The position numbers and the translations under genes were made by a program. From Limnofasciculus baicalensis BBK-W-15 (GTDB lineage: Bacteria > Cyanobacteriota > Cyanobacteriia > Cyanobacteriales > Coleofasciculaceae): 38,448 nucleotides of DNA. The DNA lies in contig NZ_JAMZMM010000013.1 in NCBI RefSeq assembly GCF_024178385.1, positions 1 through 38,448 on the forward strand, read 5' to 3'. Positions 4,385 to 35,861 of this stretch are shown one piece after another; within the stretch, counting starts at the first letter, position 1; every line of letters starts with the position of its first letter. Under the pieces are notes generated by a model, which was given only the letters and a program-made list of their open reading frames with translations, did not search any database and had not been told where the DNA came from.

Positions 4385-4999
4385 ATGAGTTTAAAGAATA
4401 AAGCCAAGGCAACTGCCAAAAATATCGAAGGTAAAGTTCAAGAAGCAGTAGGCAATCTGACTGACAATCCCAAAGCTCAGGCAGAGGGCAAAGAAAAACA
4501 GGCAGAGGCAGAAGTTAGTTTCGCTATCGAAGATTTGAAAGATCAAGTCAGGGCAGCTACCAAAAATATCGAAAGTAAAGCTCAAGAAGTACTAGCACAT
4601 CTAACTGACAATCCCAAAGCTCAGATAGAGTGCGAGGAACAACAGGCAGAGCCAGAAGTTACTTCCACTAGCGAAGATATCACAAATAAAGCCAAGGCAA
4701 CTGTCAACAATATCGAAAGTAAAGATCGAGAAGCAGTAGGCACTCTGACTGACAATCCCAAAGCTCAGACAGAGGGGAATGAACAACAGGCAGAGCCAGA
4801 AGTTACTTCCATTATGGAAGATATCACAAATAAAGTTAAGGCAACTGTCAACAATATTGAAGGTACAGTTCAAGAAGCCGTAGGCTATCTGACTGACAAT
4901 CTCAACACTCAGGAAGAGGGGAAGGAAAAACAGGCAGAGGCAGAAGATAGTTATGCTATCGAAGAAATGAAAGATAAAGTGAAAAAAAAAGTTCACTAG
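4385..4999 (+). CDS. CsbD-like stress protein made of four 48-residue repeats
   Basis: 204 hydrophilic residues built from four near-identical 48-residue units at 4-51, 52-99, 100-147 and 148-195, each with the pattern NKAKAT-NIE-K-QEAVG-LTDNPKAQ-EG-EKQAEAE, then a basic tail KDKVKKKVH. The unit resembles the CsbD family of small general-stress proteins, which are normally single-domain and about 60-70 residues. Molecular function of CsbD proteins is not known; LEA-like or desiccation/osmotic protection is often proposed. The DNA repeats (4394-4537, 4538-4681, 4682-4825, 4826-4969) point to tandem amplification, with units 2 and 3 sharing CEEQQAEPE/GNEQQAEPE-type ends. The start is supported by AAGGATCG about 5-10 nt upstream. 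Confidence 0.72.
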   Translation: MSLKNKAKATAKNIEGKVQEAVGNLTDNPKAQAEGKEKQAEAEVSFAIEDLKDQVRAATKNIESKAQEVLAHLTDNPKAQIECEEQQAEPEVTSTSEDITNKAKATVNNIESKDREAVGTLTDNPKAQTEGNEQQAEPEVTSIMEDITNKVKATVNNIEGTVQEAVGYLTDNLNTQEEGKEKQAEAEDSYAIEEMKDKVKKKVH

Positions 5000-8949: not shown

Positions 8950-9042
8950 TATAGCAGCCGCCCGTGTTAAGGCATTCTCAGCTACCAAATTTTAACAAGG
9001 GGCTGAGAGCCAATTGTCCTAACCGCTGTGGCGGTTGCTATA
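8950..9042. mobile_element. 93-bp element with TATAGCAACCGCC-type ends (copy A)
   Basis: The left end TATAGCAGCCGCC and the right end GGCGGTTGCTATA are inverted repeats with one mismatch. Copy B at 13887-13979 is also exactly 93 bp. The core of copy A matches the core of copy B in the opposite orientation, while the outer arms keep the same orientation. The size and structure fit a MITE-like or foldback element. It lies between the DUF1269 gene and the Cys-rich gene and adds a spurious upstream extension to the latter's frame. Confidence 0.65.
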
Positions 9043-13886: not shown

Positions 13887-13979
13887 TATAGCAACCGCCC
13901 GTGTTAGGACAATTGGCTCTCAGCCAATTGTTAAAATTTACTAGCTGAAAATGTCCTAACTGCTGTGGCGGTTGCTATA
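13887..13979. mobile_element. 93-bp element with TATAGCAACCGCC-type ends (copy B)
   Basis: The ends TATAGCAACCGCC and GGCGGTTGCTATA are perfect 13-bp inverted repeats. Inside is a perfect hairpin CAATTGGCT/AGCCAATTG with a CTC loop. Length equals copy A at 8950-9042, but the core is inverted relative to the outer arms. The rest of 13809-14114 holds no gene I can recognise. Confidence 0.7.
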
Positions 13980-17386: not shown

Positions 17387-20302
17387 ATGTCCATCGCAAA
17401 CGATTCCAAAGAAATTCTGCGCGAACGTGCCTATGACATTCTGCGTTCCGAATACCGTCCATTAAATGCTATTTTTGCACCCAAAACGATCGCAGTTATT
17501 GGAGCCACAGAGCGACTTGGTAGTGTTGGTAGAACCCTGTTGTGGAATCTGATCACCAATTCGTTTGGTGGTACGGTGTTTCCGGTTAACCCGAAACGAT
17601 TCAGCGTTTTGGGTATCAAAGCTTATCCAACAGTGGCAGCGATTGGAGAACCAGTGGATTTAGCTATCATCGCTACTCCTGCACCAACGGTTCCAAGTAT
17701 TATTCGCGAATGTATTGCGGCTGGAGTTAAAGGCGCGATCGTCCTTTCGGCTGGATTTAAAGAAATCGGCACCGTAGGTATTGAATTAGAGCAACAGTTA
17801 TTAGCACAAATTCGTGAAAGTCAAATGCGGCTGATCGGGCCAAATTGCTTGGGCGTGATGAACCCAATTACCGGATTGAATGCCACTTTTGCTAATAGTA
17901 TGGCTCGTCCGGGAAAAGTTGGTTTTATTAGCCAGAGTGGGGCGTTATGTACAGCAATTTTAGACTGGAGTCACCGGGAAAATGTCGGATTTAGCGCCTT
18001 CGTTTCTCTGGGTTCGATGTTGGATGTAAATTGGGGGCATTTGATTGATTATCTCGGTGACGATCCACATACTGAAAGCATTGTCATCTACATGGAATCG
18101 ATCGGCGATGCGCGATCGTTTCTGTCTGCTGCCCGCGAGGTAGCATTAACTAAGCCGATTATTGTGTTGAAAGCGGGTCGCACTGAAGCTGCTTCAAAAG
18201 CTGCGGCTTCCCACACGGGATCTTTAACTGGCAGCGATGCAGTGCTTGATGCTGCTTTCCGGCGCTGCGGCGTGTTGCGGGTAAACACGATCGCGGATTT
18301 ATTCGATATGGCAGAAGTGCTAGCAAAACAGCCTCGTCCTAAAGGCCCTCATCTTACTATTATCACCAATGCTGGAGGCCCCGGCGTATTAGCAACAGAT
18401 GCGCTGATTGCTACTGGGGGCGAATTGACAGAATTATCGGCTGATGCGATCGCCTCTCTGAATGCGATTCTACCTCCTCACTGGAGCCATCACAATCCGA
18501 TCGATATTTTAGGAGATGCCGATCCCAACCGCTACGCTAAAACTCTGGAAATTGCAGCCAACGATCCTAACAGCAATGGACTGCTAGTCATTCTCACGCC
18601 CCAAGCAATGACCGATCCCAGTCAAACAGCCCAACAGCTCAAACCCTACGCTAAACTGCCTGGTAAGCCAATTCTTGCCAGTTGGATGGGCGGAAGTGAG
18701 GTGTCACAGGGCGAGTTACTGCTAAATCAAGCTGGAATTCCCACCTATCCCTATCCCGATGCAGCGGTGCAGGTATTTAGCTATCTGTGGCGATCGAGCT
18801 ACAATCTACGTGAACTCTATGAAACTCCGGTTTTACCCACATCTTGCACCATTGTCAAGAACAGGCAAGATGCCTTTTCCACAACAAACCATGAGTTTTC
18901 TGGTGGGGCGGGCTTTGAGAACAGGCAAGATGCCTGTTCCACAAACTATGAGTTTTCTGATGGGGCGGGCATCCTGCCAGCCTGTATCCAGGCTGCACAA
19001 ATCATTGATGCCGCCCGCCAGGAAGGGCGAACAATTTTGACGGAAGTGGAATCCAAGCAGATTTTAGCCGCTTATGGGATTCCCACCGTTCAAACCTGCA
19101 TTGCGACTACCGAAGATCGAGCCGTTGAATGTGCCAGGGCGATCGGGTATCCTGTGGTTCTCAAACTGTTTTCCAAAACTATTACCCATAAAACAGATGT
19201 GGGCGGAGTGCAGTTGAATTTGATGGACGAAAACGCAGTCCGAAACGCTTACCAAGCTATTAAATCTGGTGTTCAAGCCTTAGCTGGAGAGGAGAATTTT
19301 CTAGGCGTTACTGTGCAGCCAATGATTGAGCTTGAGGGATATGAACTGATTATTGGTAGTAATCTCGACCCGCAATTTGGCCCAGTGTTGCTATTTGGAA
19401 CTGGCGGACAATTAGTGGAGGTTTTCCAAGATCGGTCGATCGCCCTACCGCCTCTGAATACAACCTTAGCACGCCGGATGATGGAGCAAACCCGGATTTA
19501 CAAAGCATTAAATGGTGTGCGAGGACGAAAGGCGGTTGATTTACCTGCACTCGAACAATTGATGGTGCAGTTTAGTCAACTGGTTGTAGAACAACGTTGG
19601 ATTAAGGAAATAGACATCAATCCTCTATTAGCAACTTCAGAGCAATTGCTAGCCCTCGACGCTCGCATTATTTTACATGAGTCAGACATCGATGAAAACC
19701 AACTGCCAAAATTAGCGATTCGTCCTTATCCCACCCAATATGCAACTCCGTGGACGATGAAAAACGGTATTTCAATTACAATTCGTCCGATTCGTCCAGA
19801 AGATGAACCGTTGATGATTCAATTCCACAAAACTCTGTCTGAGGAAAGCGTTTATTTTCGCTACTTTCATTTAATTAAGCTCAGTCAACGGATTGCTCAC
19901 GAACGACTGACTCGCCTCTGCTTTATTGATTACGATCGCGAAATGGCACTCGTCGCCGATTACCAAAATCCTGAAACTGGAACTCATGAAATTCTAGCTG
20001 TGGCGCGTTTGAGCAAATTGCACGGCATGAATGAAGCAGAATTTGCGCTGTTGGTGAGCGATAGTTATCAATGTCAGGGATTAGGAACAGAATTACTCGA
20101 TCGCCTGATCCAGGTGGGACAGGATGAAAAGCTCGATCGAATTACGGCTGAAATTCTCTGCGACAATTCCGGGATGCAGCGAGTTTGCAAAAAACTCGGA
20201 TTCCAGATTCTACGGGGGATCGATTCTAATGTTGTCAAAGCAGAGATTCAGACATCAAAGCCAAGTCCAAAAGGTTCAGAAGCCAGCACTCATCCCAACT
20301 GA
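17387..20302 (+). CDS. ADP-forming acyl-CoA (acetate-CoA) ligase fused to a GNAT acetyltransferase
   Basis: 971 residues. Order: CoA-binding Rossmann domain (about 28-125, IAVIGAT, PNCLG at 152-156), succinyl-CoA-ligase-like domains with [10 protein letters not shown] (His276) at 275-284, an ATP-grasp domain (about 550-770), and a C-terminal GNAT domain (about 790-960) with the acetyl-CoA loop QCQGLGTEL. The first three form an NDP-forming acyl-CoA synthetase that can turn acetyl-CoA, ADP and phosphate into acetate and ATP. The whole layout is that of Pat/PatZ lysine acetyltransferases, where the synthetase part can be inactive; the SHTG His, normally needed for catalysis, is present here. 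Residues about 491-531 are translated repeat DNA inserted between domains. It precedes pflB and suits fermentation. Confidence 0.88.
18858..18977 (+). repeat. Two tandem 60-bp repeat units inserted in frame in the ligase gene
   Basis: Units 18858-18917 and 18918-18977 both begin AGAACAGGCAAGATGCC and carry TGAGTTTTCTG-TGGGGCGGGC. Each is exactly 20 codons, coding for [16 protein letters not shown] and EFS-GAG stretches. The second runs into GCGGGCATCCTGCC, related to the palindrome at 229-243. The insertion falls in the linker between the ligase core and the ATP-grasp domain. Confidence 0.7.
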
Positions 20303-20364
20303 TTCGGGCTTGCTTGTTGCTCAGGATTGTCGATCGCGCTTAAAATTTGGTCAAATAGTCCCAT
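20290..20364 (-). pseudogene. N-terminal stub of a DUF937 family protein, minus strand
   Basis: On the minus strand, ATG at 20364 is preceded by GGAGCGAAG and reads MGLFDQILSAIDNPEQQAS, then PNQLG and a stop at 20290. This closely matches the start of cyanobacterial DUF937 proteins (MGLFDQIL-A--NP-QQ). Only 24 residues remain, and the stub runs convergently into the end of the ligase gene. It is the only minus-strand gene trace I found. Confidence 0.6.
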
Positions 20365-20545
20365 AATCTTCGCTCCGTACTGTAGTTGCTCAATTCTAGA
20401 TTAGCTCAACAGCATGAACTAACCACCACTGACGCGATCGCCTACAGTGGGGTTTCCATCTCGGCGACGGCACGAGTACGCATTGTCTCTTGCAAATGTT
20501 CATCATGCTGACGGTTTTCCTCACAGGTTCTTCGCATTTTGTTTG

Positions 20546-20623
20546 TATAATAGAATTGAGACAAAAAACAGGCTTCTAGTGACCAAAATTGTCTTCAGAT
20601 CTTCCAGGAAACCTGGAAGCCTG
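20546..20623 (+). promoter_or_regulatory. Candidate pflB promoter -10 and leader with competing hairpins
   Basis: TATAAT at 20546-20551 is a perfect -10 hexamer about 135 nt before pflB; no matching -35 is seen, so an activator may be required. In the leader, CTTCCAGG (20601-20608) pairs with CCTGGAAG (20612-20619) over an AAA loop, while CAGGCTTC (20569-20576) pairs with GAAGCCTG (20616-20623). The pairs share GAAG at 20616-20619, so only one can form fully. The remaining 20365-20545 contains a weaker CCACTG/CAGTGG hairpin near 20427-20453 and no gene. Confidence 0.35.
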
Positions 20624-20684
20624 ATGTCTTGAGACTCATAGCTGAATCCTCATCGCTGACTTAAGCCAGGAGGCAGAGAACGAT

Positions 20685-22913
20685 ATGTTTGAGCAATGGC
20701 AAGAATTTAATTCAGGCAATTGGATGAACGAAATTGATGTACGTGATTTCATCCAAAAGAACTATCGGCCCTATGAAGGCAATGAATCGTTTCTAGCTGA
20801 CGCAACAACAAGAACCCAAACGCTCTGGAGTCAAGTAACCAGTTTAATGGCTCAAGAGCGAGAAAAAGGAATTTTGGATGCAGATACGGCGATCGTTTCG
20901 ACAATTACATCTCACAATCCAGGCTACATCGATCGCAATTTAGAACAGATTGTAGGCTTGCAGACAGATCAACCTTTGAAACGAGCAATTATGCCGTTTG
21001 GCGGGATTCGCGTGGTGCAAGCTTCCCTCAAAGCCTACGGTTATCAACTCGAACCAGCCACTGAGCAGATTTTCACCAAGTACCGTAAAACCCACAGTGA
21101 CGGCGTATTTGATGCCTACACCCGCGAAATGCGCTTGGCGAGGCACTCTGGTATTATCACCGGATTGCCGGATGCCTACGGGCGAGGGCGGATTATTGGC
21201 GATTACCGTCGAGTTCCATTATATGGGGTCGATCGCCTGATTGATGACAAGAAAACGCAATTACAATCGCTGGAAGTTGATGCGATCGATGTTGACATCA
21301 TCCGACTGCGAGAAGAGATTAACGAACAAATTAAAGCTTTGTTTGAGTTAAAGGAAATGGCGACAAGCTACGGCTTTGATCTTGGTCGTCGGGCCGCTAA
21401 TGCTAAAGAAGCCGTGCAGTGGCTCTATTTTGCTTATCTAGCAGCAGTTAAAGAGCAGAATGGGGCGGCCATGTCTCTCGGGCGAGTCTCGACTTTCCTG
21501 GACATTTATTTTGAGCGCGACATGAAGAATGGCACGATGAATGAATCGGAACTTCAGGAACTGATCGACCATTTTGTGATGAAATTGCGCATGGTCCGCT
21601 TTTTGCGAACACCTGACTACAACGAGTTGTTTTCTGGCGATCCGACTTGGGTGACAGAGTGTATTGGCGGTATGGGTGAAGATGGTAGAACCTTGGTAAC
21701 AAAGACCAATTTCCGCATTCTCAATACGCTATTTAACCTCGGTTCTGCACCAGAGCCAAACCTGACTGTATTGTGGTCTGAACGATTGCCGATCGCCTTC
21801 AAACGTTATTGTGCTAAAGTTTCGATCGAAACCAGTTCGATTCAATATGAAAATGATGATTTGATGCGTCCCTATTGGGGAGATGATTATGCGATCGCCT
21901 GTTGTGTTTCGGCGATGCGAATCGGCAAACAAATGCAGTTTTTCGGCGCACGGGTGAACTTGGCGAAATGCTTGCTGTATGCGATTAACGGCGGCAAAGA
22001 TGAAAAATCTGGCGAACAAATTGCCCCGGCTTACGCACCGATTACCTCTGAATATTTAGATTATGACGAGGTGATGCAAAAGTTCGATCGGATGATGGAC
22101 TGGCTGGCCAAAGCCTACATCAATACGCTGAATGTGATTCACTGTATGCACGATAAGTATTGCTACGAACGATTAGAAATGGCATTGCACGATCGCGATG
22201 TCTTCCGCACGATGGCCTGTGGGATTGCTGGACTTTCAGTAGTAGCAGATGCACTTTCTGCCATCCAATATGCCAAGGTGAAAGTCATCCGAGACGAACA
22301 TGGATTAGCAGTAGATTATCAAATTGCAGGGGATTTTCCCAAGTACGGTAATAATGACGATCGCGTTGACCAAATTGCCGTCAACTTAGTTAAAGGCTTC
22401 ATGAACAAGCTGAAGCAGCACAAAACCTATCGCAATGCTGTTGCAACGCAATCCGTACTGACAATTACTTCCAACGTGGTTTACGGCAAAAAGACGGGTA
22501 ATACGCCCGATGGACGCAAAGCAGGTGAACCATTTGCACCGGGAGCAAATCCGATGCACGGACGGGATACAAAAGGTGCGATCGCCTCTCTAGCTTCGGT
22601 TGCTAAATTGCCTTACGCCTACGCGCAAGACGGGATATCAAACACCTTTTCGATTGTACCAGGAGCGTTGGGTAAGATTGAGGGCGATCGGCTGACAAAC
22701 CTCGTCGGAATGCTAGATGGTTACTTCCACGATGGTGGCTTTCACATGAATGTGAACGTGCTGAATCGAGACACGCTTTTGGATGCAATGGATCATCCTG
22801 AATTGTATCCACAACTCACGATTCGTGTTTCTGGTTATGCCGTTAATTTCATCAAACTGACGAGAGAACAACAATTAGATGTGGTGAAACGGACTTTTCA
22901 CGATCGGTTCTAA
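20685..22913 (+). CDS. pflB: Pyruvate formate-lyase (formate C-acetyltransferase)
   Basis: 742 residues, close to the roughly 760 of E. coli PflB. The active-site pair Cys406-Cys407 lies in [20 protein letters not shown], and the glycyl-radical site Gly717 is in [13 protein letters not shown]. The enzyme converts pyruvate and CoA to acetyl-CoA and formate under anoxia; the glycyl radical is destroyed by oxygen. AGGAGG at 20668-20673 gives a strong ribosome-binding site for ATG 20685. The activase gene follows at 23210. PFL is uncommon in cyanobacteria, and the presence of both enzyme and activase with AdhE argues it is functional. Related glycyl-radical enzymes lack the double Cys, so the assignment is firm. 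Confidence 0.96.
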
Positions 22914-22920
22914 GCAAGTT

Positions 22921-22942
22921 GGGGTGAGTAATATCTCACCCC
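22921..22942 (+). terminator. Hairpin directly after pflB
   Basis: GGGGTGAG and CTCACCCC form a perfect 8-bp stem around TAATAT, 8 nt after the pflB stop. A weak T-rich stretch (GGTTTTGATT) follows some 8 nt later rather than at once, so it may be a terminator or an mRNA-stabilising end separating pflB from pflA. Confidence 0.5.
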
Positions 22943-23019
22943 TGCTAATGGTTTTGATTGGATAAGTAGGTAGGCGGGATTCAACAAAACCATGTAACAG
23001 TTTTCATGGGAGTTCAAAT

Positions 23020-23118
23020 ATGATTGCTTTAAAAAGTATTGTAATTTGGCTAGTTTTTCTCATTGCCGAGAGCCTGAATGGAACGGTTCGTATCCTATGG
23101 CTGTTAAGGCATCAATAG
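23020..23118 (+). pseudogene. 32-codon fragment resembling the start of a small membrane protein
   Basis: ATG 23020 with GGGAG about 7 nt upstream reads MIALKSIVIWLVFLIAES, then LNGTVRILWLLRHQ and stop. The AES-NGT-R sequence after a first membrane helix looks like the opening of a larger multi-pass protein that has lost the rest. It could also be a genuine small membrane peptide. It lies between pflB and pflA; the rest of 22943-23209 holds a possible -10 (TATAAT at 23162) 48 nt before pflA. Confidence 0.35.
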
Positions 23119-23209
23119 TGAGGGGAGGGTGAAGCAAGAGGATATAAATATTTTCTCGGGCTATAATAAAGTTAAGGGTTGAAAAATCCAACAAGAGGAA
23201 GTAGCAACA

Positions 23210-23953
23210 ATGTCAGTTTCTACATCTGTTTCTGGTTACATCCACTCGATCGAAACCTGCGGCACTGTTGATGGCCCGGGTATTCGGTTTGTAATTTTCA
23301 CAGCAGGCTGTCCCCTACGTTGCCTGTACTGCTCTAATCCTGATTGCCGATATCTAGAAAACGGTAAAAAGGTGAGTGTTGATGAATTAATCGCAGACAT
23401 TCAGAAATACACCTCTTACATGAATTCTTCTGGAGGTGGAGTCACCGTTAGCGGTGGTGAACCATTGTTTCAATCTCACTTTGTCACAGAGATTTTTAGG
23501 CGCTGTCAAATATTAGGAATTCACACGGCATTAGATACTTCTGGATACTGTGACTTGCAGGCTGCAAAACAAGTTTTAGAATTTACCAATCTCGTTCTAC
23601 TCGATATTAAATCTTTCGATCCAGCAACGTATCATAAAGTTACCAGCGTCGATCTCGAACCTACCTTAATTTTGGCGAGATATTTAAGTGAGATTCATAA
23701 ACCAGTTTGGCTGCGATTTGTGCTGGTGCCCGGGCTTACGGACGATCGCCAAAACGTTGAAAAACTGGCAGACTTTGTTGCAGGTTTAAAAAACATCGAA
23801 AAAGTCGAAGTTTTACCGTTTCACAAAATGGGTGAATACAAGTGGCAACAGTTGGGATATGACTATCAACTCAAAGATACTCAACCTCCAACACCAGAGT
23901 TAATCCAGCAAACATTAGAGATTTTTAGAAGTCGGGGACTGAATGCTGTTTGA
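23210..23953 (+). CDS. pflA: Pyruvate formate-lyase-activating enzyme (radical SAM)
   Basis: 247 residues, the family's usual length. The 4Fe-4S cluster motif CPLRCLYC provides Cys34, Cys38 and Cys41, with the aromatic-Cys ending typical of radical SAM enzymes; SGGGVTVSGGEPLFQ is the SAM-binding GGE motif. The N-terminal HSIETCGTVDGPGIRFVIF is characteristic of PFL activases. It uses SAM and an electron (flavodoxin or ferredoxin) to make the glycyl radical on PflB. AGAGGAAG about 8 nt before ATG 23210 is the ribosome-binding site. A TATAAT at 23162-23167 may allow separate transcription from pflB, about 300 nt upstream. Confidence 0.95.
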   Translation: MSVSTSVSGYIHSIETCGTVDGPGIRFVIFTAGCPLRCLYCSNPDCRYLENGKKVSVDELIADIQKYTSYMNSSGGGVTVSGGEPLFQSHFVTEIFRRCQILGIHTALDTSGYCDLQAAKQVLEFTNLVLLDIKSFDPATYHKVTSVDLEPTLILARYLSEIHKPVWLRFVLVPGLTDDRQNVEKLADFVAGLKNIEKVEVLPFHKMGEYKWQQLGYDYQLKDTQPPTPELIQQTLEIFRSRGLNAV

Positions 23954-23963
23954 GAGCTAACTA

Positions 23964-24062
23964 TAGCCTCGATCGGATTTCTGGAGGTGCGTCGCCTCCG
24001 ACAAAAAGTAAGTTCCATTTAACCAGTCGTTTCGACGCACCCTACAGATTAGCCTCGATCGG
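23964..24062. repeat. Small element between 13-bp direct repeats upstream of adhE
   Basis: TAGCCTCGATCGG occurs at 23964-23976 and again at 24050-24062. The 73 nt between them contain GGTGCGTCG and its reverse complement CGACGCACC, plus a small GGAGG/CCTCC hairpin. The layout suits an insertion with target duplication, or a slipped duplication. It occupies most of the pflA-adhE gap. Confidence 0.5.
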
Positions 24063-24110
24063 TATCTCACTTCGCAAGAAAACCATTATCATAGGAAGGT
24101 ATGTATCCAA

Positions 24111-26816
24111 GTGGTTGTAACTAATATCCAAGAACTCGAAACACTCATTCAACAAGTCAAAATTGCTCAAGCAAAGTATGCGACTTACTCCCAAGAACAA
24201 GTCGATACCATCTTCAAGAAAGCGGCGACTGCTGCTAATACTCAACGCATTCCTTTAGCAAAATTGGCAGTGGCAGAAACCGGAATGGGTGTTGTTGAAG
24301 ATAAAGTGATTAAAAATCACTTCGCTTCAGAATACATCTACAACAAATACAAGCACGATCGCACTTGCGGCTTAATCGAAGAAGATAAATCCTTTGGCAT
24401 TCAAAAAATCGCTGAACCAATGGGAGTTTTAGCTGGGATTGTTCCCGTCACTAATCCCACTTCAACGGCGATTTTTAAGGCTTTGATTGCACTGAAAACT
24501 CGCAATGCAATTATTTTCTCTCCTCATCCACGGGCGAAGCAGAGTACGATCGAAGCTGCTAGAGTTGTGCTAGAAGGCGCGATCGCCGCTGGAGCACCAG
24601 AGCACATCATCGGCTGGATTGACGAACCGACAGTGGAGTTATCCCAAGCCTTGATGCAGCATCCCGACATCAAGCTGATTTTGGCAACGGGCGGGCCGGG
24701 GATGGTTAAATCTGCTTATTCATCGGGACATCCGTCTTTGGGTGTGGGTGCAGGTAATACCCCGGCGGTGATTGATACAACGGCAGATATTCAAACTGCT
24801 GTCAGTTCGATTTTGATCAGCAAAACCTTCGACAATGGGATGATTTGTGCTTCGGAACAGTCGGTGATTGTGCTGGATGCGGTGTACGATCGAGTAAAGC
24901 AAGAATTCATCGATCGAGGTGCTTACTTCCTGACAGCAGAAGACAAGGAAAAAGTTAGCAAAATCCTCCTGAAAGATGGTCATATTAATCCGGCTATTGT
25001 CGGACAATCGGTGGAGGCGATCGCCCAAATTGCCGAAATTGGATTAGTTTGTCTGGAGTTTCAGAGTCACAACCGTGCAGAAATTGAAAGCCACAATCCC
25101 GTCCCCTGCACTTTGCCTAAAGTTTTGATTGCCGAAGTCGAAAACATCGGTACGACTGAACCATTTTCCTATGAAAAATTGTCTCCGATTCTGGCGATGT
25201 ATCGGGCAAGCAATTTCAATGATGCTGTGGAGAAAGCCGGAAAGTTAGTCGAATTTGGCGGGAAAGGACACACGGCTGTTTTGTATATCAATTCAGCAAA
25301 AATTGAGGATATTAAGTATTTTGAGAACACGGTAAAAACATCGCGAGTGCTGATCAATACTCCCTCTTCTCAAGGTGCGATCGGCGATCTTTACAACTTC
25401 AAACTAGACCCATCTTTGACACTAGGCTGCGGCACTTGGGGCGGTAATACGATTTCAGATAATGTGACTCCTCATCATTTACTGAACATCAAAACAGTGT
25501 CAGAGCGGCGGGAAAATATGCTTTGGTTCCGCGTGCCGCCCAAGGTTTACTTTAAGTCTGGTTGTCTTCCTGTCGCCCTGCGCGAATTAGCAGGCAAAAA
25601 GCGAGCTTTCATCGTCACGGATAAACCGCTATTCGATTTGGGATTGGTCGAAAAACTCACGACAGTTTTAGATGAAATTGGGGTGAAACACGATATTTTC
25701 CATGATGTTGAACCCGATCCTACCCTTGCAAATGTTACCAAAGGATTGGAATTACTCAACAGCTATCAACCTGATGTAATTATTGCGATCGGCGGTGGTT
25801 CGCCAATGGATGCAGCAAAAGTGATGTGGCTGATGTACGAGCATCCAGAGGTGGAGTTTGAGGGGTTGGCGATGCGGTTTATGGACATCCGCAAGCGGGT
25901 ATATGAGCTACCAACCCTCGGTCAAAAAGCGATGCTGGTGGCGATTCCTACAACCTCTGGTACTGGCTCAGAAGTCACGCCTTTTGCGGTGGTTACAGAT
26001 GAGCAAGCAGGGATTAAATACCCGCTGGCCGATTATGCACTAACTCCAAATATGGCGATCGTCGATCCGGAATTAGTGCTGAATATGCCCAAGAAACTGA
26101 CAGCCTACGGTGGGATTGATGCTTTAACTCACGCTTTGGAATCCTACGTTTCTGTACTCGCAACGGAGTTTACGGAAGGATTAGCGCTGGAGGCGATCGG
26201 GCTTTTATTCAAGTATTTACCTCGTGCTTACCACAACGGTGTCAGCGATCCAGAAGCGCGGGAAAAAGTACATTATGCTGCGACGATCGCAGGTATGGCT
26301 TTTGCCAATGCTTTCTTAGGTGTTTGTCACTCGATGGCGCATAAATTAGGCTCTACTTTCCATGTGCCGCACGGATTGGCAAATGCGTTGATGATTTCTC
26401 ATGTAATTCGTTACAACGCGACTGATGTTCCATTCAAACAAGCGATTTTTCCGCAATACAAATATCCTCACGCGAAAGAGCGGTATGCCGAGATTGCCGA
26501 TTATTTAAGGCTGGGTGGAGATTCCCCGGATGAAAAAGTCGAAAAACTCGTGGCAGCGGTGGAAAACTTAAAGCATCAAGTAGAAATTCCGGCGACGATT
26601 CGAGAAACATTAGGAGAAGAAGATCGCACTTTTTACGAGAAGGTTGAAGTCATGGCCGAACAAGCTTTTGACGATCAATGTACTGGTGCAAATCCCCGTT
26701 ATCCGCTGATTCGCGACCTGAAAGAGTTGTATGTCTTAGCTTACTTGGGTTGCCGTATTGATGCTGCGCCTTTCTATGCAGAACCTTGCGAGATTTTGCC
26801 AACGACCGTTGCGTAG
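24111..26816 (+). CDS. adhE: Bifunctional acetaldehyde-CoA/alcohol dehydrogenase
   Basis: 901 residues (E. coli AdhE: 891). The N-terminal aldehyde dehydrogenase half has catalytic Cys246 in DNGMICASEQS. The C-terminal iron-dependent alcohol dehydrogenase half has GGGSPMDAAK and metal ligands Asp670, His674 (GGIDALTHALES), His740 and His754 (CHSMAHK, HVPHG), at the same spacing as E. coli. It reduces acetyl-CoA to acetaldehyde and ethanol, re-oxidising two NADH. The start is GTG 24111 with AGGAAGG 11 nt upstream; ATG 24101 is in another frame with an early stop. It completes the PFL branch: acetyl-CoA goes either to ethanol here or to acetate plus ATP through the ligase at 17387. Confidence 0.96.
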   Translation: MVVTNIQELETLIQQVKIAQAKYATYSQEQVDTIFKKAATAANTQRIPLAKLAVAETGMGVVEDKVIKNHFASEYIYNKYKHDRTCGLIEEDKSFGIQKIAEPMGVLAGIVPVTNPTSTAIFKALIALKTRNAIIFSPHPRAKQSTIEAARVVLEGAIAAGAPEHIIGWIDEPTVELSQALMQHPDIKLILATGGPGMVKSAYSSGHPSLGVGAGNTPAVIDTTADIQTAVSSILISKTFDNGMICASEQSVIVLDAVYDRVKQEFIDRGAYFLTAEDKEKVSKILLKDGHINPAIVGQSVEAIAQIAEIGLVCLEFQSHNRAEIESHNPVPCTLPKVLIAEVENIGTTEPFSYEKLSPILAMYRASNFNDAVEKAGKLVEFGGKGHTAVLYINSAKIEDIKYFENTVKTSRVLINTPSSQGAIGDLYNFKLDPSLTLGCGTWGGNTISDNVTPHHLLNIKTVSERRENMLWFRVPPKVYFKSGCLPVALRELAGKKRAFIVTDKPLFDLGLVEKLTTVLDEIGVKHDIFHDVEPDPTLANVTKGLELLNSYQPDVIIAIGGGSPMDAAKVMWLMYEHPEVEFEGLAMRFMDIRKRVYELPTLGQKAMLVAIPTTSGTGSEVTPFAVVTDEQAGIKYPLADYALTPNMAIVDPELVLNMPKKLTAYGGIDALTHALESYVSVLATEFTEGLALEAIGLLFKYLPRAYHNGVSDPEAREKVHYAATIAGMAFANAFLGVCHSMAHKLGSTFHVPHGLANALMISHVIRYNATDVPFKQAIFPQYKYPHAKERYAEIADYLRLGGDSPDEKVEKLVAAVENLKHQVEIPATIRETLGEEDRTFYEKVEVMAEQAFDDQCTGANPRYPLIRDLKELYVLAYLGCRIDAAPFYAEPCEILPTTVA

Positions 26817-33262: not shown

Positions 33263-33319
33263 CTTCGATCAAATCCATTTGCGATGGAATAACCGCAATT
33301 GAGTGGAGGAAAATTAGCA

Positions 33320-33394
33320 ATGCCATTTACCACCGAACAATTTTTTCTGGTTTTCAACAAATACAATCAAAATACTGGAGATAGTAATGACTAA
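33320..33394 (+). pseudogene. N-terminal stub of a DUF6064 gene, overlapping the next gene
   Basis: Reads MPFTTEQFFLVFNKYNQ then NTGDSND and stop, against MPFTTEQFFRVFEKYNQ of the intact DUF6064 gene at 35810. The surrounding 91 nt (33281-33371) repeat 35771-35861 with about 7 mismatches, including the GTGGAGGAAAATT ribosome-binding site. The stub's stop overlaps the start of the DUF6544-like gene by 8 nt, so it may now work as a leader peptide delivering ribosomes to that gene. Confidence 0.7.
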
Positions 33395-35626: not shown

Positions 35627-35770
35627 AAGCTTTGTATCGTAATCAATCAATTCAACCAACTCATTCAGAAAATCATGCGATCGCCTGTCACACTCAAAGC
35701 TTGGTATGAGCGGAAGATATTAACTTCCTCCTTTAGTCGAACAATAGCGAACTGCTGACAGCTATGAATT

Positions 35771-35861
35771 GCAACGGAATAACCGCAATCGAGTGGAGGA
35801 AAATTAGCAATGCCATTTACCACCGAACAATTTTTTAGGGTTTTCGAGAAATACAATCAAA
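35771..35861 (+). repeat. 91-nt duplicated segment (source copy at the DUF6064 start)
   Basis: This segment covers the upstream region, ribosome-binding site and first 17 codons of the DUF6064 gene. It matches 33281-33371 at about 92 percent by eye. The shared part starts at GGAATAACCGCAAT and ends at ATACAATCAA, then the two copies diverge abruptly. Confidence 0.7.

Follow-up and report, generated by a model that had tools for sequence, protein, structure and literature searches.

The window analyzed here, a 38,448-nt stretch of a Limnofasciculus baicalensis BBK-W-15 contig (NZ_JAMZMM010000013.1), carries a run of four intact open reading frames in which a gene for an ADP-forming-type ligase fused to a GNAT acetyltransferase precedes pflB, pflA and adhE (Table 1). 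A complete PFL/AdhE set accompanied by such a fusion had been proposed in the initial annotation, and Pfam and NCBIfam searches confirm this composition of the locus. PflB, PflA and AdhE pass the curated NCBIfam cut-offs of their families, scoring 1234.9 bits against 994.2 for TIGR01255, 320.5 bits against 231.75 for TIGR02493 and 1389.3 bits against 951 for NF010378, respectively, and their catalytic residues are in place. Every catalytic residue that had been assigned to these three enzymes, as well as His276 of the ligase, was recovered at the position previously given for it. Two features that the initial annotation did not mention are His601, a second histidine of the ligase, and a repeat insert in the alpha-beta linker.

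Table 1. Features of the fermentation locus (window positions) and of the phosphoketolase–ackA locus elsewhere in the same genome.
Feature	Position	Strand	Description
Ligase-GNAT fusion	17387..20302	+	971 aa; ADP-forming-type acyl-CoA (acetate) ligase with C-terminal GNAT acetyltransferase; Pfam/NCBIfam
Alpha part	17483..18760	+	CoA_binding_2 (33-159), Succ_CoA_lig (175-312), Ligase_CoA_2 (324-458); Pfam
SHTG motif with His276	18209..18220	+	Expected phospho-histidine loop; alignment
Insert in alpha-beta linker	18858..18987 (about)	+	In frame; repeat dispersed through the genome, present in two copies; direct repeats D7, D8
Beta part	19013..19675	+	ATP-grasp_5 domain (543-763); Pfam
His601	19187..19189	+	Second (beta) phospho-transfer histidine, in ITHKTD; alignment
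GNAT domain	19775..20206	+	Residues 797-940; Glu885, P-loop Q895-x-x-G898-x-G900; Pfam, alignment
PflB, pyruvate formate-lyase	20685..22913	+	742 aa; TIGR01255; Cys406-Cys407, Gly717
PflA, PFL-activating radical SAM enzyme	23210..23953	+	247 aa; TIGR02493; CPLRCLYC from residue 34
AdhE, bifunctional acetaldehyde/alcohol dehydrogenase	24111..26816	+	901 aa, GTG start; NF010378; Cys246, Asp670, His674, His740, His754
XFP phosphoketolase directly upstream of ackA	L085 2770-6592, contig C654		Same genome, outside the window

Additional features were recorded elsewhere in the window. Tandem repeats of 144 bp are present in an open reading frame at 4385-4999, which encodes three CsbD-like domains, and a NACHT-domain protein with an NCH2 C-terminal helical domain (640-2952) may be a defence or signalling protein of the STAND type. 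The 58-nt arms of an inverted repeat (8966-9023 and 13903-13960) are separated by 4.9 kb; additional short repeats occur close by, and the stretch between the arms includes a P-type ATPase gene. A 93-nt stretch occurs twice at 92% identity (33279-33371 and 35769-35861); a DUF6064 gene (35810) has its start within the latter copy, the former may be a remnant of such a gene, and two DUF6920/DUF6544 paralogues are found near these repeats at 33387 and 37554.

Ligase domains and phospho-transfer histidines

A single chain holds CoA_binding_2, Succ_CoA_lig, Ligase_CoA_2, ATP-grasp_5 and GNAT domains (Pfam). The features expected of an ACD are present, namely CoA-binding, flavodoxin-like and ligase-CoA domains together with an ATP-grasp beta domain, a histidine within SHTG in the alpha part and a second histidine in the beta part. 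We take these two residues, His276 and His601, to be the phospho-transfer histidines of ACD-type ligases. Against TIGR02717 (acetate-CoA ligase alpha), the alpha part reaches 548.8 bits, slightly below the cut-off of 567.15; because this cut-off is a model threshold and not a chemical feature, the protein is described here as working like an ACD and is not filed as a TIGR02717 equivalog.

Conservation of these residues was assessed in two sets of sequences. The first combines the window protein with 80 loci obtained by scanning public genomes, and all 81 of its proteins have His276, His601 and Glu237. In the same alignment, E. coli PatZ keeps Glu237 and His601, the latter column showing H in 82 of 82 rows with PatZ included, but has a gap at the segment containing His276 and SHTG. 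The second set was drawn from a class sample of 166 cyanobacterial genomes with a completeness of at least 90% and consists of 91 homologues, one from each of 91 of the 94 ligase genomes; two-copy genomes contributed one copy, and the window itself (G000) and two partial proteins (G030 and G274) are not among the 91. SHTG was found in all 91, and His601 in all 89 rows with letters at that position. The 80-locus set and the class sample overlap, so their counts are not additive, and L004 and L088, like L046 and L090, are identical proteins. Mean pairwise identity amounted to 0.72 for the alpha part, 0.68 for the beta part and 0.61 for the GNAT domain (88 rows, 1500 random pairs). Four short or cut sequences (L177, L182, L103 and L185), which have gaps in the SHTG/His601 alignment, were omitted from this comparison.

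More distant relatives retain the alpha histidine as well. Ligases of approximately 725 aa from another class of the phylum (L186-L192, from genomes such as G208 and G232) lack GNAT and carry SHTG in seven of seven cases; in the ligase search, 110 of the 173 matching genomes were same-phylum rows of this GNAT-less kind, the absence of GNAT having been checked in seven. Type I relatives are also encoded on Pseudomonadota plasmids. Among eight such proteins picked from the 60 matches listed, two of them from Sinorhizobium meliloti, seven keep HTG, and the Salinivibrio plasmid protein L109 shows a shortened segment that reads SHT without G. A Photobacterium protein (L107) keeps HTG and groups with PatZ and L109 in a FastTree phylogeny of 106 rows; this tree, from which L105, L108 and L103 were left out, has long branches among the plasmid and PatZ rows, and its deep order was not used. 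E. coli PatZ is thus the only clear loss of the alpha histidine among the proteins compared. Given that HTG is kept in these relatives of PatZ, the architecture as such does not entail losing the histidine.

An AlphaFold2 model of the fusion protein (pLDDT 76.3, pTM 0.73, 43 aligned rows) could be superposed on E. coli PatZ (9it0) over 865 residues (Z 28.4, 36% identity), on 8wzu over 591 residues (Z 31.7) and on the GNAT domain of 4u5y over 159 residues (Z 21.8). The SHTG loop and the linker are modeled with low confidence, residues 478-529 of the linker falling below a pLDDT of 50. E. coli PatZ and Salmonella Pat (type I; 9it0, 9isq) likewise arrange alpha, beta and GNAT in this order within one chain, and PatZ has His601, the GNAT glutamate and the P-loop glycines in common with the window protein. 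The two differ at SHTG, since here both histidines are present, and in the location of the gene beside pfl/adhE. ACD1 of Ca. Korarchaeum (4xyl) and the single-chain Nitrosopumilus ligases (8wzu, 9y43) share the alpha and beta domains (fold Z of approximately 31), and their SHTG aligns with His276; however, they have no GNAT domain, the alpha and beta parts of ACD1 are separate chains, and beta precedes alpha in 9y43.

The linker between the alpha and beta parts has itself accommodated two copies of a dispersed repeat without disruption of the reading frame. This repeat has 44 matches in the genome at no more than three mismatches (reversed control, 0), and the insert is absent from the linkers of all 80 other loci in the alignment.

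The match of overall architecture and fold to E. coli PatZ would also suit an explanation in which the ligase part is a catalytically dead acetyl-CoA sensor, as PatZ has been described, so that the protein would act solely as a lysine acetyltransferase, encoded near fermentation genes to report on acetyl-CoA. A passage of one review describes the ligase domains of type I and type II Pat proteins as inactive because they lack the catalytic histidine, while still binding acetyl-CoA (PMC8556138). Here, the catalytic histidine is present as His276, and the residue lost in PatZ is found in every homologue of both overlapping sets. Furthermore, the alpha and beta parts are better conserved than the GNAT domain, and SHTG is kept by the GNAT-less ligases of another class. 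We therefore regard a dead ligase part as unlikely and favor a working one.

That the ligase part of well-studied Pat proteins is regulatory or inactive had already been pointed out in the initial annotation, which is echoed by the review passage above; the accompanying view that a dual-function enzyme at this locus would be new holds less well, as the architecture with the histidine is common and some of its members already bear a bifunctional name. The domain pairing itself is widespread. It occurs, with the histidine, in records titled Chloroflexi, Acidobacteria, Verrucomicrobia, Planctomycetales, Armatimonadota (Chthonomonadales) and Betaproteobacteria, a good number of which are MAGs, as well as on the Pseudomonadota plasmids, and is common in cyanobacteria. 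For some relatives, the NCBI pipeline uses the title "bifunctional acetate--CoA ligase family protein/GNAT family N-acetyltransferase", which denotes the same architecture and is an automatic name only. What is added here is not the domain pairing but comparative sequence evidence for a putative ligase function, which is stronger than that offered before. Our literature search on this enzyme, in cyanobacteria and more widely, found no paper testing both functions, and one for PFL in Synechococcus mats returned no paper.

Acetate routes and co-occurrence with PFL

The genome of BBK-W-15 (6.6 Mb, 762 contigs), which its relatives place among the cyanobacteria, is 99.26% complete and 3.03% contaminated; being a draft, it attaches a small risk to each absence, although the class-wide pattern agrees. 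No match was obtained in it for Pta at E 1e-3 or for PduL or the CoA-transferase PF13336 at E 1e-8. One Acs and one AckA are encoded. The phosphoketolase gene directly upstream of ackA suggests that AckA more likely serves phosphoketolase, an arrangement in which it can receive acetyl phosphate without acetyl-CoA. Since Pta, PduL and the CoA-transferase are missing, the enzymes sought leave just two options for PFL-derived acetyl-CoA, the ligase and an Acs working in reverse; together with the position of AckA behind phosphoketolase, this makes the ligase the best candidate for turning acetyl-CoA into acetate and ATP.

Three further candidates were considered and rejected. AckA rendering the ligase redundant for acetyl-CoA was ruled out by the lack of Pta and PduL in this genome and by the phosphoketolase preceding ackA. 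A CoA-transferase route was dismissed because PF13336 is found in one of the 166 class-sample genomes and not in this one. A second ACD was excluded, as the ligase-GNAT protein is the single ATP-grasp_5 (PF13549) match in the genome and the sole other ligase-like match is weak (E 8e-8, query 90-271).

Across the class sample, the ligase was detected in 94 of 166 genomes (E 1e-50), PFL in 66, AckA in 139 (E 1e-30; 136 over the cut-off), Acs in 164 and Pta in 15, and PduL was found in none. A passage of a recent review states that many cyanobacteria use Pta with acetate kinase (PMC11546870). Searches of 14 control genomes returned matches for each family (PFL 3, AckA 9, Pta 10, PduL 2, CoA-transferase 4 and Acs 8). 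The ligase is present in 63 of the 66 PFL genomes versus 31 of the 100 without PFL (Fisher p 2.5e-18), and the association also appears at the genus level (p 3e-8) and within families (Mantel-Haenszel odds ratio 34, p 9e-9); owing to the relatedness of the genomes, these p-values overstate the evidence, and the within-family test is the fairest that was run. Pta does not track PFL (8 of 66 versus 7 of 100, p 0.28). The PFL genomes comprise 57 with the ligase only, 6 with both ligase and Pta, 2 with Pta only and 1 with neither. Searching the three PFL genomes that lack the ligase for ATP-grasp_5 gave no match at E 1e-10; two of these genomes carry Pta (G011 and G324), and the third (G322, 380 contigs) is the single PFL genome with neither enzyme.

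The ligase is also physically linked to fermentation genes in some relatives. Among the 80 loci, 54 carry cyanobacterial titles, and pfl or adhE genes lie beside the ligase in 17 of these, a lower bound because some loci are cut at contig ends; such neighbors were found at none of the 26 non-cyanobacterial loci. In 10 of the 17 linked loci, adhE runs into the ligase gene on one strand, with gaps between match ends of 83-259 bp in nine and 1691 bp in the tenth, whereas five are divergent and two show other arrangements. Of the 63 class-sample genomes with both genes, 21, belonging to seven families, have the ligase no more than 15 kb from pflB; the other 42 do not show the two genes at this distance on a single contig. 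On the 106-row tree, the linked state changes 13 times when cut loci are scored as not linked.

Shared ancestry or a shared anoxia-tolerant lifestyle, rather than one pathway, could in principle produce the link between ligase and PFL. The genomes are not independent, and one family of 17 small genomes (f25) has PFL in none and the ligase in one. Nevertheless, the association persists within families and when f25 is removed (p 4e-15), Pta shows no such association, and physical linkage recurs in scattered branches of the tree. An explanation by lifestyle or ancestry is, in our judgment, highly improbable.

It could also be argued that the ligase is active but serves acetate uptake, or acts on propionyl-CoA or another acyl-CoA, with fermentation acetate being derived from a reversed Acs or from phosphoketolase and AckA. 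Acs and AckA are indeed frequent in the class sample, and PFL was not matched in 31 of the 94 genomes with the ligase. Substrate specificity is not readable from sequence, and the fold relatives of the model take in 4-hydroxybutyrate and 3-hydroxypropionate ligases and a DMSP lyase. Moreover, Acs can yield ATP in reverse, and Syntrophus is described in part of one report as making ATP with Acs (PMC4992975). However, being present almost everywhere, Acs offers no explanation for the retention of the ligase in PFL genomes, and the linkage of the ligase to adhE and pfl is operon-like. Two 3-Mb cyanobacterial genomes (G171 and G291) also speak against this reading; PFL, AdhE, AckA and the ligase are present in both, the ligase gene adjoins pflB-pflA-adhE, and no match was found for Pta, for PduL or, at E 1e-100, for Acs. 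This alternative accordingly appears improbable. Acetate formation by the predicted ligase is instead suggested by the arrangement of the genes, by the association with PFL and by the rarity of Pta.

A passage on Chloroflexus aurantiacus offers a parallel in a phototroph, as acetate is described there as being formed from acetyl-CoA by one ADP-forming acetate-CoA ligase, with other acetate-forming enzymes missing from the genome (PMC11187502). By that description, one-enzyme acetate formation would be alike in the two systems.

Acetyltransferase domain and proposed mechanism

The protein joins an N-terminal NDP-forming ligase to a C-terminal GNAT domain in one chain and has both the P-loop R/Q-x-x-G-x-G/A and the conserved glutamate, as in type I Pat. 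In the 80-locus alignment with PatZ included, G898 and G900 are each found in 82 of 82 rows, and the Glu885 column contains E in 76, Q in 4 and R in 2; in the class sample, E885, G898 and G900 are each present in all 87 rows with letters there. From these features, the GNAT domain probably acetylates proteins, perhaps including Acs. The Acs of this genome retains PKTRSGK, the motif that surrounds the lysine known to be targeted by Pat. Acs is a natural first candidate for the target of the GNAT domain because this motif is kept and because re-activation of acetate would waste ATP. G171 and G291 keep the GNAT domain without an Acs match at E 1e-100, which indicates that Acs is not the sole target.

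Related acetyltransferases have been described. S. lividans PatA (4u5y, with the Acs C-terminal domain) has a similar GNAT fold, yet its GNAT is N-terminal (type II, according to a passage in PMC8556138) and that of the window protein is C-terminal. For phototrophs, a 2025 review refers, in one passage, to cGNAT2 as the acetyltransferase with an activity called confirmed (PMC12224894).

We consider it fairly probable that this locus supports a dark-anoxic PFL/AdhE fermentation in which the ligase part makes acetate and ATP and the fused GNAT is a protein acetyltransferase. In the mechanism that we infer, including the direction and substrate of the ligase and the activity and target of the GNAT domain, PflB activated by PflA would cleave pyruvate into formate and acetyl-CoA under dark anoxia. 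AdhE would reduce part of the acetyl-CoA to ethanol, thereby reoxidizing NADH, and the ligase part would convert the remainder, with ADP and phosphate, to acetate and ATP. The phosphoryl group would pass from phospho-His276 to His601 and on to the ATP-grasp site, so that the ligase would do the job of Pta and AckA in E. coli. The GNAT domain would acetylate proteins in an acetyl-CoA-dependent manner, the most economical target being the AMP-forming Acs, whose inactivation would keep the cell from spending ATP on re-activating newly formed acetate.

A broader proposal can be advanced only tentatively, and we hold it with less than even confidence. One polypeptide may couple an ATP-making ligase and a GNAT domain on the same acetyl-CoA pool, such that fermentation flux sets the acetylation of Acs and other enzymes; type I Pat proteins may, correspondingly, have arisen from working ATP-making ligases, with E. 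coli PatZ as a derived form whose histidine was lost.

If true, these proposals would explain how PFL-bearing cyanobacteria without Pta, an enzyme seen in so few of the sampled genomes, gain ATP from acetyl-CoA. They would also call into question the general view that the ligase part of type I acetyltransferases is dead, and would tie night-time fermentation in phototrophs directly to protein acetylation.
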